A DNA stretch of 64,000 nucleotides, taken from NCBI RefSeq assembly GCF_001267405.1, contig NZ_CP012369.1:1638001-1702000 (forward strand), written 5' to 3'. Below, piece after piece: positions 25,593 through 44,435 of this stretch. How positions within the stretch are numbered: position 1 is the first letter of the stretch; each line of letters begins with the position of its first letter. The DNA is from Moorella thermoacetica. GTDB lineage: Bacteria > Bacillota > DSM-521 > Neomoorellales > Neomoorellaceae. The translations under genes and the position numbers were made by a program. The notes beneath the pieces were generated by a model that was given only the letters and a program-made list of their open reading frames with translations, was not told the origin of the DNA and ran no database searches.

Positions 25593-25639
25593 ACCATCAT
25601 CCATGCTTACGCCCGCCCCTTCCGCGAGGGCGGCATAAA

Positions 25640-25792
25640 CTTTTCAGGCAGGTCTCCTGACTCGGATCATCACACCTTTGCCCCTTCCCCCATTAAGGAG
25701 TGGTCTGGCAAGTGCTCACCTTCACAGTGGCGGGTCCGTCCGGGATTCGCACCCGGTTCCCTATTCTCCCTTGCGGGCACCTGAAAAGTAAC
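25640..25792 (-). promoter_or_regulatory. Cobalamin (B12) riboswitch controlling bzaA-bzaB-cobT-bzaC
   Basis: The minus strand carries the B12 box AGTCAGGAGACCTGCC (25647-25662). It also carries the core GCCACTGTGA and a GGGTGCGAATCCCGGACGG arm, closed by the complementary ends TTTTCAGGTG and CCTGAAAAG. With the downstream terminator this predicts transcription termination when adenosyl- or methylcobamide is bound. Confidence 0.93.
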
Positions 25793-25857
25793 CATATGCA
25801 ACTTTCTATTCTAAAATTATAATTGTTCGCCTGTTTTCTGTAAAGGCCCTTTGTAAA

Positions 25858-36811: not shown

Positions 36812-38759
<1,948 letters not shown>

Positions 38760-38785
38760 GTAAACAACCCCTTTCTTTAAGCCGT

Positions 38786-40264
38786 TTAATCGTTTTCTCC
38801 TTGTGGTTCGTCGTTTTCGTTTGCCTTCAACCCGGCGATAAAGGTATAAATGCCGGTTTTAAACAGCTCGCTGTCGCTGGTGGCAAACAGGCTGGCCAGG
38901 GAGGCAGGAAATTGTTTATTGTCGCCGCTGGTAAGGTAAAGCCTTAAAAGCAGGTGATAAACTTCAGTCTTCTTGTTCAACCTGGTCAATTCCAGCAAAC
39001 GGTAAACCAAATTCTTGTCAAGATTGCTGTTGAGGTCTACCGGCGCCTCAGCGGCTGCCGCCTGGATTGCTTTTAAGTTAAGATAACCCATGCTTGTCCC
39101 CCCTTCGTTCCTGGCTAATTGCTGCCGGATCATATAATAAAGGTGGATAAGATTAGTCACCGGCGCGACGTTAGTTACATCCTTGTAGACAACTTCCGGA
39201 TCTTTCTCGTTGTTGCCCCCTTTGAGCAGAGCCCGCAGGGACTTGTAAATCACAGTGGGCAGGTAATCAAAACGCTCCCGGAGGATAATCTCCCATATCC
39301 TGTCATTAGCAATTTGCCCTATTAAGGAGGATACCCGGGGTATCAGGAGCAGGCGGGCCAGCCGGGCCGAAATAGGATAATATTCCACGCTGTCCTGTTC
39401 AAAAACCAGCAATTCCATGTTTTGCAGGCCCCAGCTGCCCAGCGCCCGTCTTAATTGCCGGTCGTATTGCATGGCGCTTAAGAGGGTTTTATGGCCGCCT
39501 TTCCCTGTTCTCCCGGCAAGGAGCCGGTTCAAGTGCCAGTTTACCAGGAGGGAATCGGAATTGATAAAAAATTTGCTTATCAGGTGAAAACATAAAAAAT
39601 AGGAGCGGCACTGCTTGCACATGATAAGGTTAGGATTTCCGTCCCAAAAAAGGTTGGGAAATTCTTCATAGCTGTTACCTAGGTAAATTGATACTGTTCG
39701 TGTAAAAAAGGTATTATACGTGGAACTGTTTATTTCCAGTTCAGTCTTTCTGCCACAAAAGCTGCAAATTGGGGTTCTCAAAGTATGGATATTATTTAAA
39801 TCAAACCATATATTTAAGAACTCGGCTTTACTCGCAGTACTTTTGAGATGGCCCAGATTGGCTAAATTAGGGTAATAACCTCCTTTAAAATGAAATAGTC
39901 TCCCGAAAACCATGTCTATTTTCTCAGCATTAGTCGGGTTATTCCTTTTAGCTTTTTTATCTTTGCTAGGAATAAAACCTTCTTTATAGCTCTTCTCCAC
40001 CCACCACCAGCCGATTCTTTTCAGTGCCGGTAATTCCGCCGGTACTTCCCGAAAGACGTAGCCGTCGGGGAAAGGAGTCCCCCGGGGCTTAAAAGCTGCG
40101 TCCATGAGGTCGCCGGGGATAACGGCCCGGCCGTCCTCCTGGAGGATTTTGCCGGCTACAATTTCCTCTCCCTTTTCGCCCAGGCCGTAAGCCAGTACTT
40201 CGAGGAAACCTTGAACACAGGCATTGTAGTACCAGGAAGCCGGGTAAATCTCTATGTCCTGCAT
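38786..40264 (-). CDS. cas8b1: Cascade large subunit Cas8b1 (Cst1)
   Basis: The 492-aa subunit is expected to recognise the PAM and hold the R-loop. A zinc-finger-like region is formed by CSFCGRK and CKQC about 50 residues apart. The N terminus [20 protein letters not shown] matches Cst1. Homology in this subunit is low in general, so the call leans on the finger, the length and the position between cas6 and cas7. Confidence 0.9.
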
Positions 40265-40267
40265 GGC

Positions 40268-41011
40268 TTAATCGCCCACCTCCAGAAGCCCGAAGCCCTG
40301 CCCCGTTCTAATCCCCAGACCGAAATCGTAGAGAAATTGCAGCGTTTCCGGGGTGCTCTTTAAATGGATACGGCCCTGAAGGGTTGTTAACTGCCCTCCG
40401 TAATGGAAGCACACTCCCTTGTGATAGCTTGGAGGGCCTAAGACTTTAACCGGGCTAACACGGGAGTGATAATCCAGATGATATTGCTGAATTAAAAAAC
40501 TATACCGCTTATAAAGGTGGGTGTTAATTGCTTCCTCCAATTCCCTCACATCAGAACCGTCGACATAATGCCGCACTCCTCTAAAGACAGCGTGGCCGGC
40601 AATCCGGAACTCCTGCTCGCCGGTCTGAATCTGCTTTAACGGCAGGAGATAGATGTCCTTGAGATACAACCCCAGCACCGTTTCCCGGCCTTTCATAGCA
40701 ATGGCGCCGTTGCTAAATGTGGTCATGACGTCAAAAAGGCCGGTAGAAATGGTCACGAGGATGGGCGGCCTGGCCGTTATCTCCCTTTGCCGGGTATCAA
40801 TGTCGATAATTTTGTTGAATTCTACTGAAAAGACATACGGGCTGTAGCCCGGTTTCTCGAGGGTAAAACGTGCGGCCAGGGCAGAGGTACCGGCCAGGGT
40901 TTTAATTAATGAAATGAAGTGGCGACGAAAGTCGAGGGGAAGGACCATTGTTCGCCCCCTCCCCTCTTCGCCTGGTTGAAGGACGATGCGTAAACGCAGC
41001 CTGATCACCAC
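40268..41011 (-). CDS. cas6: CRISPR pre-crRNA endoribonuclease Cas6
   Basis: This 247-aa double-ferredoxin-fold protein ends with the Cas6 glycine-rich loop LGIRTGQGFGLLEVGD. It cuts within repeats to leave the 8-nt handle. The start is one of two adjacent GTG codons (41011 or 41008), giving VIRLRLRIVLQ, the expected first strand. It is the first gene of the cas operon. Confidence 0.92.
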   Translation of the reverse strand: MVIRLRLRIVLQPGEEGRGRTMVLPLDFRRHFISLIKTLAGTSALAARFTLEKPGYSPYVFSVEFNKIIDIDTRQREITARPPILVTISTGLFDVMTTFSNGAIAMKGRETVLGLYLKDIYLLPLKQIQTGEQEFRIAGHAVFRGVRHYVDGSDVRELEEAINTHLYKRYSFLIQQYHLDYHSRVSPVKVLGPPSYHKGVCFHYGGQLTTLQGRIHLKSTPETLQFLYDFGLGIRTGQGFGLLEVGD

Positions 41012-41246: not shown

Positions 41247-42665
41247 CTAGAAATACAAATCCCGCTCGCCGGCGGCGATGCGCTCCAGGCGGCGTTCCGT
41301 TTCGGCCCGGATGGCCGGGCTGGGGATCCGGGCCAGGTGCTCCCTGATGGTTGTCTCTCCTACTTCCCTGGTAGCCGGGCGGGCATAATCCAGCAAGTAT
41401 TCCTTAAAGGTGAGGATGGCGTTAGGCTGGCAGCAGTGCTGGATCTCCCCGGTTTTGGCCAGGGACATGAAGCGGTCGCCGGTGCGGCCGCGGCGGTAGC
41501 AGGCTGTGCAGTAGCTGGGGAGATACCCCCGCCGGCAGAGGTCGCCGATAACCTCATCGGGGTGGCGGTGGTCGCCGATTTCAAACTGGGGGATATCGTC
41601 TTCCTGATCGGCATAGTGACGGCCATAGCCCCCTACCCCCGTACAGGAGCCGGCGCTGATCTGGGAAACGCCCAACTCCAGGAGTTCCGCCCTGAGCTCC
41701 GCCGTCTCCCGGGTGGAGATGATCATGCCGGTATAGGGCACAGCCAGGCGGATGATGGCCACCAGTTTCTTAAAATCTTCGTCGTCAACCAGGTAAGGGA
41801 ATTTTTCCAGGGTAATGTTGTAGGCCGGCCGCAGGCGCGGTACGGAGATGGTATGGGGGCCGACGCCGAAGGTCTCCTCCAAGTGCCGGGCATGGTAGAG
41901 CAGGCCCATGACTTCGAATTTATAATCGTAGAGGCCGAAGAGGACCCCCAGGCCGACGTCGTCGATGCCGCCCTCCATGGCCCGGTCCATGGCCGTGGTG
42001 TGCCAGTCGTAGTCCGCCTTGGGGCCGCCGGGGTGCATGTAGGCATAAGTAGGCCGGTGGTAGGTCTCCTGGAAGAGGACGTAGGTGCCGATGCCGGCGG
42101 CCTTTAACTGCCTGTAGGCATCCACCGTCGTCGCCGCGATGTTGACGTTTACCCGCCGGATGCTGCCGTTGGCTTCGGTGATGCGGTAAATGCGGTTAAT
42201 AACATCCAGGGTATATTCAAGGGGACAATGGACGGGATCCTCCCCGGCCTCCAGGGCCAGGCGCTTATGCCCCAGGGATTCCAGGATGCGCACCTCCCGT
42301 TCCAGTTCCTCCGGCTCCAGGCGGCGGCGTTCGAATTTATTTTCCCGCCGGTAGCCGCAGTAGCGGCAGTTGTTAATGCAGTAGTCGCTGAAGTACAGAG
42401 GTGCAAAAAGAACTATCCGCTGGCCGTAGATCTTTTCCTTTATCTCCCGGGCGGCGGTAAACATCCGCCGGCGTACGTCCGCATCGTCGTTCTGGAGCAA
42501 AACCGCCACCTCGTAGGGCTCCAGCCCCTTCGCTTCCCGCGCCTTTTCGATAATCCTGACAGCCACATCCCTCGTTGCCCGTTTAGCTTCTTCCAGGTAG
42601 CCTTCTATCTCTTCATGATTGATAAAATCGGCGCGATAACCGTGTTGCATGGAAAATTCCTCCAT
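41247..42665 (-). CDS. hydG: [FeFe]-hydrogenase maturase HydG
   Basis: The 472-aa radical-SAM tyrosine lyase makes the CO and CN ligands of the H-cluster. The radical-SAM cluster is CINNCRYC (CX3CX2C). A second C-terminal cluster is formed by CTAC and a later CC, 22 residues on. The N terminus FINHEEIEGYLEEAKR is typical. It lies 99 bases after hydE. HydF, needed to assemble the subcluster, is not in this window. Confidence 0.94.
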   Translation of the reverse strand: MEEFSMQHGYRADFINHEEIEGYLEEAKRATRDVAVRIIEKAREAKGLEPYEVAVLLQNDDADVRRRMFTAAREIKEKIYGQRIVLFAPLYFSDYCINNCRYCGYRRENKFERRRLEPEELEREVRILESLGHKRLALEAGEDPVHCPLEYTLDVINRIYRITEANGSIRRVNVNIAATTVDAYRQLKAAGIGTYVLFQETYHRPTYAYMHPGGPKADYDWHTTAMDRAMEGGIDDVGLGVLFGLYDYKFEVMGLLYHARHLEETFGVGPHTISVPRLRPAYNITLEKFPYLVDDEDFKKLVAIIRLAVPYTGMIISTRETAELRAELLELGVSQISAGSCTGVGGYGRHYADQEDDIPQFEIGDHRHPDEVIGDLCRRGYLPSYCTACYRRGRTGDRFMSLAKTGEIQHCCQPNAILTFKEYLLDYARPATREVGETTIREHLARIPSPAIRAETERRLERIAAGERDLYF

Positions 42666-42764: not shown

Positions 42765-43817
42765 CTAAGCAGGAATGGGCTTCAAGGTATGCCCCGGTCC
42801 CCGGCCCAGGCGTCGCCCTAAGGCGCGGACCATGCCCTCCAGGCAGTAGCGGCAATCCTCCGGTCCCTCATTGATACAAATCTTGTTGGGATAGATCTGG
42901 TAGTCGGCCCGGTAGCGGGTGGGGGTCAGGTTGGGCATGATGACGTTGGCCCCCCGCTGCAGGGCCTTCTGGCGGCCGTTGGGCGCCAGGGTACCCACCG
43001 CTGTGGTGGCCGGCAGGTGGGCGAAAGGAATGACCAGGCGGGCCGTAGCCACCACCCGGTAAGTTAGTTCCAAACTCCCGGCCGGCTCCCCGGCCAGGGG
43101 TGTTGCCGGGTGGGGGATAAAGGGCCCCAAACCCGCCATCTCCACATCCAGCTGTCGCAGGAGGAGCAAGTCGTCGGCCAGGTCGGCCAGGGTCTGGCCC
43201 GGCAGGCCGATGATGTTGCCGGAGCCCACCTGGTAGCCCAGTTCCCGCAGCCACTGGAGGCATTGGAGGCGTTCCTGCCAGCTCATGCCGGGGTGCAGGC
43301 GGGCGTAAAGTTCTTCGTTGGCCGTTTCGTGTTTCAAGAGGTAGCGGTCAGCCCCGGCCTCCCGCCACAGGGCGTACTCCTCCCGGGAGCGCTCGCCTAC
43401 ACACAGGGTCACGGCCACCCCCATTTCTTTAATCTCCCGGACGATCCCTGCCAGGACCGGGGCCGTATACCAGGGGTCCTCCCCGGACTGGAGGACGATG
43501 GTACCATAGCCCAGCTCTACTCCCTGTCTGGCCACAGCTACTATATCCTCCGGCATCAGGCGGTAGCGGTGCAACCGGGCGTTATCAGCCCGGAGGCCGC
43601 AGTAGCAACAGCGACGACGACAGTAATTAGAAAACTCGATGACACCGCGCAGGTGGACCTCGTCCCCCGCCATCCGGGCGCGGACGCCGTCCGCCAGCCG
43701 GTAGAGGGCTTCCTCCTCTTCACCGGGGGTGGCGGCGAGGAGATTAACAATATCTTCACGATCGAGTTCTTCACCTGCTGCCGCCCGCTGCCAGCTTGCA
43801 GCAAATTCCGGTCGCAC
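42765..43817 (-). CDS. hydE: [FeFe]-hydrogenase maturase HydE
   Basis: The 350-aa radical-SAM protein carries CRRRCCYC (CX3CX2C) near residue 63 and the TIM-barrel elements VLQSGEDPWY, VTLCVGERSREEY and GSGNIIGLPGQT. It processes the iron-carbonyl-cyanide precursor from HydG. It follows the TM1266-type gene by only 3 bases, which supports an operon. Confidence 0.93.
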   Translation of the reverse strand: MRPEFAASWQRAAAGEELDREDIVNLLAATPGEEEEALYRLADGVRARMAGDEVHLRGVIEFSNYCRRRCCYCGLRADNARLHRYRLMPEDIVAVARQGVELGYGTIVLQSGEDPWYTAPVLAGIVREIKEMGVAVTLCVGERSREEYALWREAGADRYLLKHETANEELYARLHPGMSWQERLQCLQWLRELGYQVGSGNIIGLPGQTLADLADDLLLLRQLDVEMAGLGPFIPHPATPLAGEPAGSLELTYRVVATARLVIPFAHLPATTAVGTLAPNGRQKALQRGANVIMPNLTPTRYRADYQIYPNKICINEGPEDCRYCLEGMVRALGRRLGRGPGHTLKPIPA

Positions 43818-43820
43818 AGC

Positions 43821-44075
43821 TTACCTCTCCTTCCCCGTCAGGGCCGCCCGGACCTTCACCCCGGGCAGGCTTCCCAGTTTACCTGTCAGGGCACCGATCG
43901 TGTCCGTCGTCCCATCTACAATCAAGGCGATGACGGCCACCCCGCATTCCCGGTAAGGGATGCCCATGCGACCGACAATACAGTGGCCGTAATCGCTTAA
44001 AATGGCGTTGACCCGGGCTGCTGTATGTTCCCGGTCTTCGATAACTATGCCCACAACTCCCAGGCGGTTCTCCAC
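43821..44075 (-). CDS. TM1266-family [FeFe]-hydrogenase system regulator
   Basis: The 84-aa protein has an ACT-like fold and occurs beside hydrogenase maturation genes. It shows RLGVVGIVIEDREHTAARVN, the central GRMGIPYRE and VIALIVDGTTDTIGAL. The role is proposed from genomic association, and it probably binds a small ligand. It is the first gene of the operon, downstream of a structured leader. Confidence 0.88.
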   Translation of the reverse strand: MENRLGVVGIVIEDREHTAARVNAILSDYGHCIVGRMGIPYRECGVAVIALIVDGTTDTIGALTGKLGSLPGVKVRAALTGKER

Positions 44076-44227: not shown

Positions 44228-44265
44228 CAAAAAACGCCTGCCGACTTACGTGAGTCGATAGGCGT
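44228..44265 (-). terminator. Leader terminator before the TM1266-hydE-hydG operon
   Basis: The stem ACGCCTATCGACT/AGTCGGCAGGCGT with loop CACGTA is followed by TTTTTTGG on the minus strand. It lies 150 bases upstream of the first gene, as in an attenuator. Confidence 0.8.
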
Positions 44266-44435
44266 CAAGAATCATCCATCACTTTAAGACCCTCCCCTCA
44301 GGTTCAGGTTACCCCTCACCGCAGGTTTAAATTTTGTTACCCTCCCGGGCCGGCCTCCGGCCCACCCGGTCAGGTTGTTCTAGTACTATTTTGCACTATA
44401 TCCGGCCGAAATGCAAGAAGCATTTGCAGGCCGGA
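44266..44435 (-). ncRNA. Structured leader RNA of unknown class upstream of hydE/hydG
   Basis: Read on the minus strand there is a long hairpin (CCGGCC...GGCCGG, 44402-44434), then a GC-rich stem (GGGCCGG/CCGGCCC). G-rich segments with recurring AACCTG and GAGGGG follow (GGTGAGGGGTAACC, ACCTGAGGGGAGGGTC). The terminator comes directly after, giving a riboswitch-like layout of aptamer plus terminator. I do not recognise it as any known riboswitch. Confidence 0.55.

Follow-up and report, generated by a model that had tools for sequence, protein, structure and literature searches.

A conserved small-hairpin leader RNA, probably a riboswitch, upstream of the [FeFe]-hydrogenase maturation genes of Moorella thermoacetica and other bacteria of its phylum

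The operon that encodes a TM1266-like protein, HydE and HydG in Moorella thermoacetica is preceded by a structured leader RNA that appears to represent a new family of cis-regulatory leader RNAs. A conserved structure, covariation, recurrent gene contexts and three arrangements of the output all emerge from the sequence comparisons reported here. We give somewhat better than an even chance to the reading, drawn from these comparisons, that the leader acts in cis to switch off the [FeFe]-hydrogenase maturation genes, a mechanism in which one hairpin, P2, would be the sensor, its G-rich 3' strand the output and a small molecule the trigger. The RNA is probably a switch of the small-molecule riboswitch kind. 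The features of the locus are collected in Table 1; the window is the whole stretch of 64,000 nucleotides that was analyzed, C1:1638001-1702000 of the Moorella genome G000, and all coordinates refer to it unless another contig or locus is named.

Table 1. Features of the leader and of the genes behind it (window coordinates)
Feature	Position	Strand	Description
Predicted promoter	44388..44416	-	-35 TTGCAT 44416-44411, 17-nt spacer, -10 CAAAAT 44393-44388
Hairpin P1	44340..44374	-	CCU-GA-CCGGG...CCCGG-GA-GGG; tandem G.A internal loop beside U.G pair
Hairpin P2, conserved core	44296..44325	-	CCU-GC-GGU-GA-GGG-GUAA-CCU-GA-ACC-UG-AGG
P2 G-rich 3' strand	44290..44298	-	AGGGGAGGG; Shine-Dalgarno (SD) sequence of the mini-ORF here
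Leader mini-ORF	44265..44282	-	GUG AUG GAU GAU UCU UGA; AUG at 44279; stop at terminator foot
Intrinsic terminator	44229..44266	-	GACGCCUAUCGACU-CACGUA-AGUCGGCAGGCGUUUUUU; compensatory changes across relatives
TM1266-like gene (gene 1)	43821..44075	-	PF21699, TIGR03959; putative hydrogenase-system regulator
hydE (gene 2)	42765..43817	-	TIGR03956
hydG (gene 3)	41247..42665	-	TIGR03955

A sequence-only reading of this region had described positions 44228-44435 as an unclassified, attenuator-like leader. The characterization is supported and extends far beyond Moorella; the limits hold for about 44381-44229 and fail for 44388-44435, because the latter consists of a conserved promoter and non-conserved upstream DNA that includes an inverted repeat absent from a relative (L002). 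The promoter motif, TTGnnT-N17-CAAAAT, occupies the same position in the leaders of Moorella and of two further genera (g5 and g7), and judging from its placement transcription is expected to start near 44381. The inverted repeat (44401-44431, CCGGCC-TGCAAATGC/GCATTT-CGGCCGG), which overlaps the -35 region, was rejected as a part of the RNA: it lies 5' of the predicted start and is missing from L002 in spite of 87% identity. The AACCTG/GAGGGG repeats noted in the same reading are present on the minus strand and correspond to the 5' and 3' strands of the two hairpins, and the strong terminator with six T residues is likewise present on that strand, some 154 nt 5' of the TM1266 start (44075). 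The fold of 44435-44228 is far more stable than those of shuffled sequences (-92.6 versus -65.3 +/- 4.2 kcal/mol; z -6.5; none of 200 shuffles as strong), and P1 and P2 appear exactly as described here in the minimum-energy fold of this single leader. The 151 nt between the terminator and the gene fold with a z-score of -0.24 relative to shuffled sequences; an aptamer at 44220-44076 was rejected given this unremarkable folding and the poor conservation of the segment.

The two hairpins are variants of one common motif in opposite orientation. P2 is composed of three helices of 3 bp each, separated by two 2x2 internal loops and capped by a GNRA-type loop, with the general form CCU-Gm-xyz-RA-GGG-loop-CCU-GA-x'y'z'-N-AGGG; single-sequence folds of most of the distant P2 cores yield the same structure. 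P1 comprises 12 pairs (97% paired), five of which show two-sided changes, and its U.G pair and tandem G.A loop are invariant in the aligned set.

In a BLAST comparison with 61 relatives, the leader core was identified in 10 of the 11 Moorella genomes, the remaining one being only 58% complete, and in genus g5; it lies 5' of TM1266-hydE in Moorella and of hydG in g5. A covariance model (R1) detected it in two genera outside the training set, before hydG in g7 (E 6e-8) and before TM1266 in g4 (E 3e-8), so that P1 and P2 lead the hyd operons in four genera of the family, Moorella included, whatever the gene order (TM1266-hydE-hydG, hydG-TM1266 or TM1266-hydG). In the two-hairpin alignment of 14 sequences, 94% of the cells assigned to pairs are paired, to be read with the bias of such alignments towards the model to which they are fitted. 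Both-sided changes occur at 7 pairs, a number reached by 2 of 500 shuffles, and the covariation score is 0.300 versus 0.170 (0 of 500 shuffles); the structure scores best in register and collapses when one strand is slid by a single column. Conserved, covarying structure 5' of the hyd genes, which the sequence-only reading had suggested seeking in relatives, was therefore found. When genome contigs were scanned with a pattern for P1 plus P2, the Moorella matches alone passed the covariance model. What may be a divergent copy, located before hydG in a different family of the same order (L039 1325-1411, genome G020; 15.5-19.3 bits), with an SD, an AUG and a terminator-like hairpin in the same order, was left out of the counts.

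Outside the family, a second model (R2) detected P2 without P1 upstream of hydG in other families. A P2 pattern applied to 398 genomes of the phylum produced 28 matches versus one for the reversed control pattern; 26 of the 28 precede hyd genes, TM1266 or a transporter gene, and two lie inside ORFs. With a model built from P2 (R3), the same 398 genomes gave 32 matches at a per-genome E<=0.0076, of which 28 were classed by context as real and 4 as chance, versus about 3 chance matches predicted from the E-value. Altogether, copies that are convincing or supported by their context occur in about 20 families of the phylum; the weak ones, retained because they precede TM1266 or a transporter gene, have per-genome E-values of 0.04-0.23 (G400, G342, G420, G434, G093, G030, G334). 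The central helix of P2 covaries: it forms in 26 of the 38 distinct sequences versus 15.5 +/- 2.5 when the halves are permuted (0 of 2000), with two sequences mis-parsed in a way that counts against the claim. P1 is absent in many lineages; it also occurs 10-12 nt 5' of P2 in families f45 and f119 (L123, L164), and hence the two-hairpin form is not confined to Moorella. A scan for P1 before P2 was positive at 10 of 48 loci, mostly in Moorellaceae, where shuffles predict 0.15; L131, with a separation of 65 nt, is a doubtful member of the ten. Pattern or R3 matches inside ORFs (L124, L135, L166, L168, L170-L173, L175, L177, L179) were set aside as chance, as was a second match in the Moorella genome itself (C1:2103738, E 0.19, inside an ORF).

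The feature that unites these leaders is the AGGGG(GG) end of P2, which overlaps the structured domain and serves as the output strand in three arrangements, being, depending on the leader, an SD or an antiterminator strand. In the first, found at genes for ECF S-components and some hydE and hydG genes, the leader lacks a terminator and the strand itself supplies the SD of the gene, close to its start codon. In the second, characteristic of many hydG and TM1266 leaders with terminators, the strand base-pairs with the 5' terminator arm, for example GGGGGGAAGGC with GCUUUUCCUCC in family f39 and AGGGAAAAG with CUUUUCCUU in L199 (-20.2 kcal/mol, z -6.4). Such duplexes outside Moorella reach -21.8 kcal/mol and z-scores down to -6.4, these being relative to single-nucleotide shuffles, and several leaders are modest (z -1 to -2). 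Direct pairing of this kind was rejected for Moorella and its closest relatives, where the duplex energies equal those of the shuffled controls (z about 0). In the third arrangement, that of the Moorella family, the P2 strand provides the SD for a mini-ORF of 3-5 codons that ends at the terminator. Every Moorella leader that was inspected has the mini-ORF with its SD, as do those of g4, g5 and g7. In 9 of 10 Moorella leaders, as well as in g4 (L043), the stop codon overlaps the terminator by exactly 2 nt. The encoded peptides are unrelated (MDDS, MRLGV, MKVTV, MRGYC, MRVNF, MSTRL, MKGV). In several genomes of families f39 and f93 (L136-L138, L142, L144, L110), leader ORFs cross the terminator in one frame and end in ...KAFPPGG, which may simply follow from conservation of the terminator sequence.

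In the mechanism that we propose, P2 would act as the sensor, joined in some lineages by the similar hairpin P1, and the G-rich 3' strand would act as the output. When P2 is unstable, the G strand would be free and would permit expression by one of three routes. At S-component genes and some hydE and hydG genes, it would be the gene's own ribosome-binding site; in many hydG and TM1266 leaders, it would pair with the 5' terminator arm and so act as an antiterminator; and in Moorella, it would allow translation of the mini-ORF, whose ribosome would shield the base of the terminator stem and let RNA polymerase pass. A signal that stabilizes P2 would lock up the G strand and turn the genes off. 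Because the G strand is hidden when P2 is folded, the folded state should be the OFF state in all three arrangements; we infer both the OFF direction and antitermination by the ribosome.

The genes behind the RNA, counted as genomes by reading of the flanking ORFs, belong to the hydrogenase maturation system and to importers. The first gene is hydG in 19 genomes, hydE in 9, hydF in one (G370), and TM1266 in about 28, where hydE/F/G or aspA usually comes next. Among these 28 or so, TM1266 is accompanied by an ECF S-component in 3 genomes (G292, G446, G434) and by genes of an NMT1/SsuA-type ABC transporter in 5 (G400, G342, G301, G421, G422); an S-component gene stands directly behind the RNA in 7 genomes and ABC genes in one (G420). 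The orphan S-component (PF12822, about 164 aa) is under P2 RNA at L140, L141, L143, L146, L149, L158 and L160, adjoins trpS in two genomes, and has a homologue 3' of TM1266 in L164, L210 and L212. The NMT1/SsuA-type ABC operons, mostly with TM1266 first, are found at L180, L181, L202-L204 and L208, and no hyd genes were seen in the stretches read at these loci. Conversely, in families f39 and f93, TM1266 is found without the RNA (L182-L186, L196, L201), between divIVA-like and MTA/SAH nucleosidase-like or other housekeeping genes, though hydG elsewhere in those genomes has it.

Two features of riboswitches are apparent in these data: a conserved structured domain lies before functionally related genes, and an expression platform (terminator/antiterminator or SD) overlaps that domain. 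The combination of biosynthetic genes and importers under one RNA is typical of a feedback metabolite riboswitch, and the presence of two importer types points to an imported compound as the signal. Whether a small molecule acts directly on the RNA we would put at roughly an even chance; such a trigger would be related to the building of the H-cluster or to an imported compound. SAM or metals, named as possible ligands in the sequence-only reading, are neither favored nor opposed by these comparisons. More specifically, and a little more tentatively, the leader may exemplify a new riboswitch class with a core of about 31 nt. Such a class would respond to a metabolite from the assembly of the [FeFe]-hydrogenase cofactor, or to a precursor brought in by an importer, and would switch off hydE/hydF/hydG and TM1266 together with a dedicated ECF or ABC importer in some 20 families of one phylum; its third output, in Moorella, would be unusual, with P2 controlling a 3-5-codon ORF on which the ribosome antiterminates. 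Naming the ligand through the importers was unsuccessful. The likeness of the S-component to RibU/ThiT-type proteins came from a low-confidence model alone (pLDDT 66, best E 0.06), and its sequence has no match among PDB sequences, while the ABC binding protein is NMT1/SsuA-like with no more specific name.

The 'riboswitch architecture' of the sequence-only reading accordingly holds as far as the structured domain and expression platform go, and a protein trigger, TM1266, is a further candidate. The main alternative, rather unlikely in our estimate, is that a dimer of TM1266 or of a partner binds P1 and P2 and represses its own operon, the other hyd genes and the transporters, TM1266 sensing a metabolite or metal. 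TM1266 is annotated as a putative regulator and shows weak similarity to NikR_C; it frequently follows the RNA directly, as an autoregulated gene would; the two copies of one hairpin motif would suit a dimer; and P2 is small for an aptamer, repeated short hairpins suiting protein binding as well. Moreover, TM1266 is encoded in all 37 RNA-bearing genomes tested, including those where it resides in an unrelated division operon without the RNA. However, TM1266 accompanies the hyd genes in general (18 of 22 genomes of the class), so this co-occurrence says little, and we know of no RNA-binding activity of TM1266. It is improbable that ribosome-mediated attenuation at the mini-ORF operates alone, with translation of the peptide reporting an amino acid or translation capacity and P1 and P2 passive: the mini-ORF, with its SD and a stop at the terminator foot, does occur throughout Moorella and in g4, but its peptides have no residue or codon run in common, many P2 leaders lack it or act directly on the RBS of the gene, and the P1 and P2 loops are better conserved than the mini-ORF. 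Quite as improbable is a fixed leader in which the terminator and hairpins set a basal level or stabilize the mRNA with no response to a signal; we can name no signal for the leader, which speaks for this reading, yet the conserved unpaired and internal-loop bases, the three outputs built round one strand and the reuse before transporters argue against it.

The suggestion that the leader fits no known class was borne out: Rfam 15 gave no credible match at E<=10, the only one being RsmY, on the wrong strand (10.9 bits, E 5.3), and 26 related loci gave no match at E<=1. In Rfam 15 and openly accessible papers, we found no earlier description of an RNA regulator of hydE/F/G or hydrogenase maturation, or of one linked to TM1266. 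Nothing of the kind is mentioned in two extensive surveys of non-coding RNA in bacteria (PMC11109978, PMC8632094). Wco RNAs in tandem are reported upstream of certain hydrogenase genes (PMC9481103). Unlike the Moco/Wco riboswitches, which differ in size, sequence and genes, the leader has no Rfam match. Guanidine-II/mini-ykkC is a small single-hairpin riboswitch in which two small hairpins also occur in tandem, and the P2 RNA resembles it in having short conserved hairpins, sometimes in tandem, before enzyme and transporter genes, with terminator or SD output, but differs in its conserved CCUGA...RAGGG, its gene set and the lack of an Rfam match at E<=1. Like the NMT1 motif (xanthine) riboswitch, the P2 RNA precedes NMT1-type ABC transporter genes, but it is tied to TM1266 and hyd genes, and the Rfam model of that riboswitch had no match at E<=1 in L202, L203, L204 and L208. 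In attenuators of the trp/tna type, a short translated ORF lies beside the terminator, as it would in Moorella, but here neither peptide nor codons are conserved and most members of the P2 family do not use an ORF; a leader-peptide amino-acid attenuator was rejected, as no conserved run of regulatory codons was found. BglG/SacY RAT and ANTAR targets are conserved hairpins that overlap the terminator decision; P1 and P2 have a different motif, the candidate protein is TM1266, and no gene for a BglG/SacY- or ANTAR-type regulator was seen at the P2 loci.

To our knowledge, no signal governing the assembly of the [FeFe]-hydrogenase H-cluster has been described, and bacteria may use the leader to sense one and so control hydrogen metabolism. 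The RNA links hydE/F/G to a putative regulator and to orphan importers, suggests what the orphan S-component and the NMT1-type transporter serve, and narrows the question to what binds P2; the leader is also a possible tool for tuning hydrogenase expression in acetogens. Elsewhere in the window, a cobalamin riboswitch at 25630-25799 on the minus strand (107.7 bits) is the sole Rfam match at the gathering level. The ORFs directly 3' of hydG, at 37695-41011 on the minus strand, look CRISPR-associated (Cas6-like and Cas7-like), as judged from their sequences.
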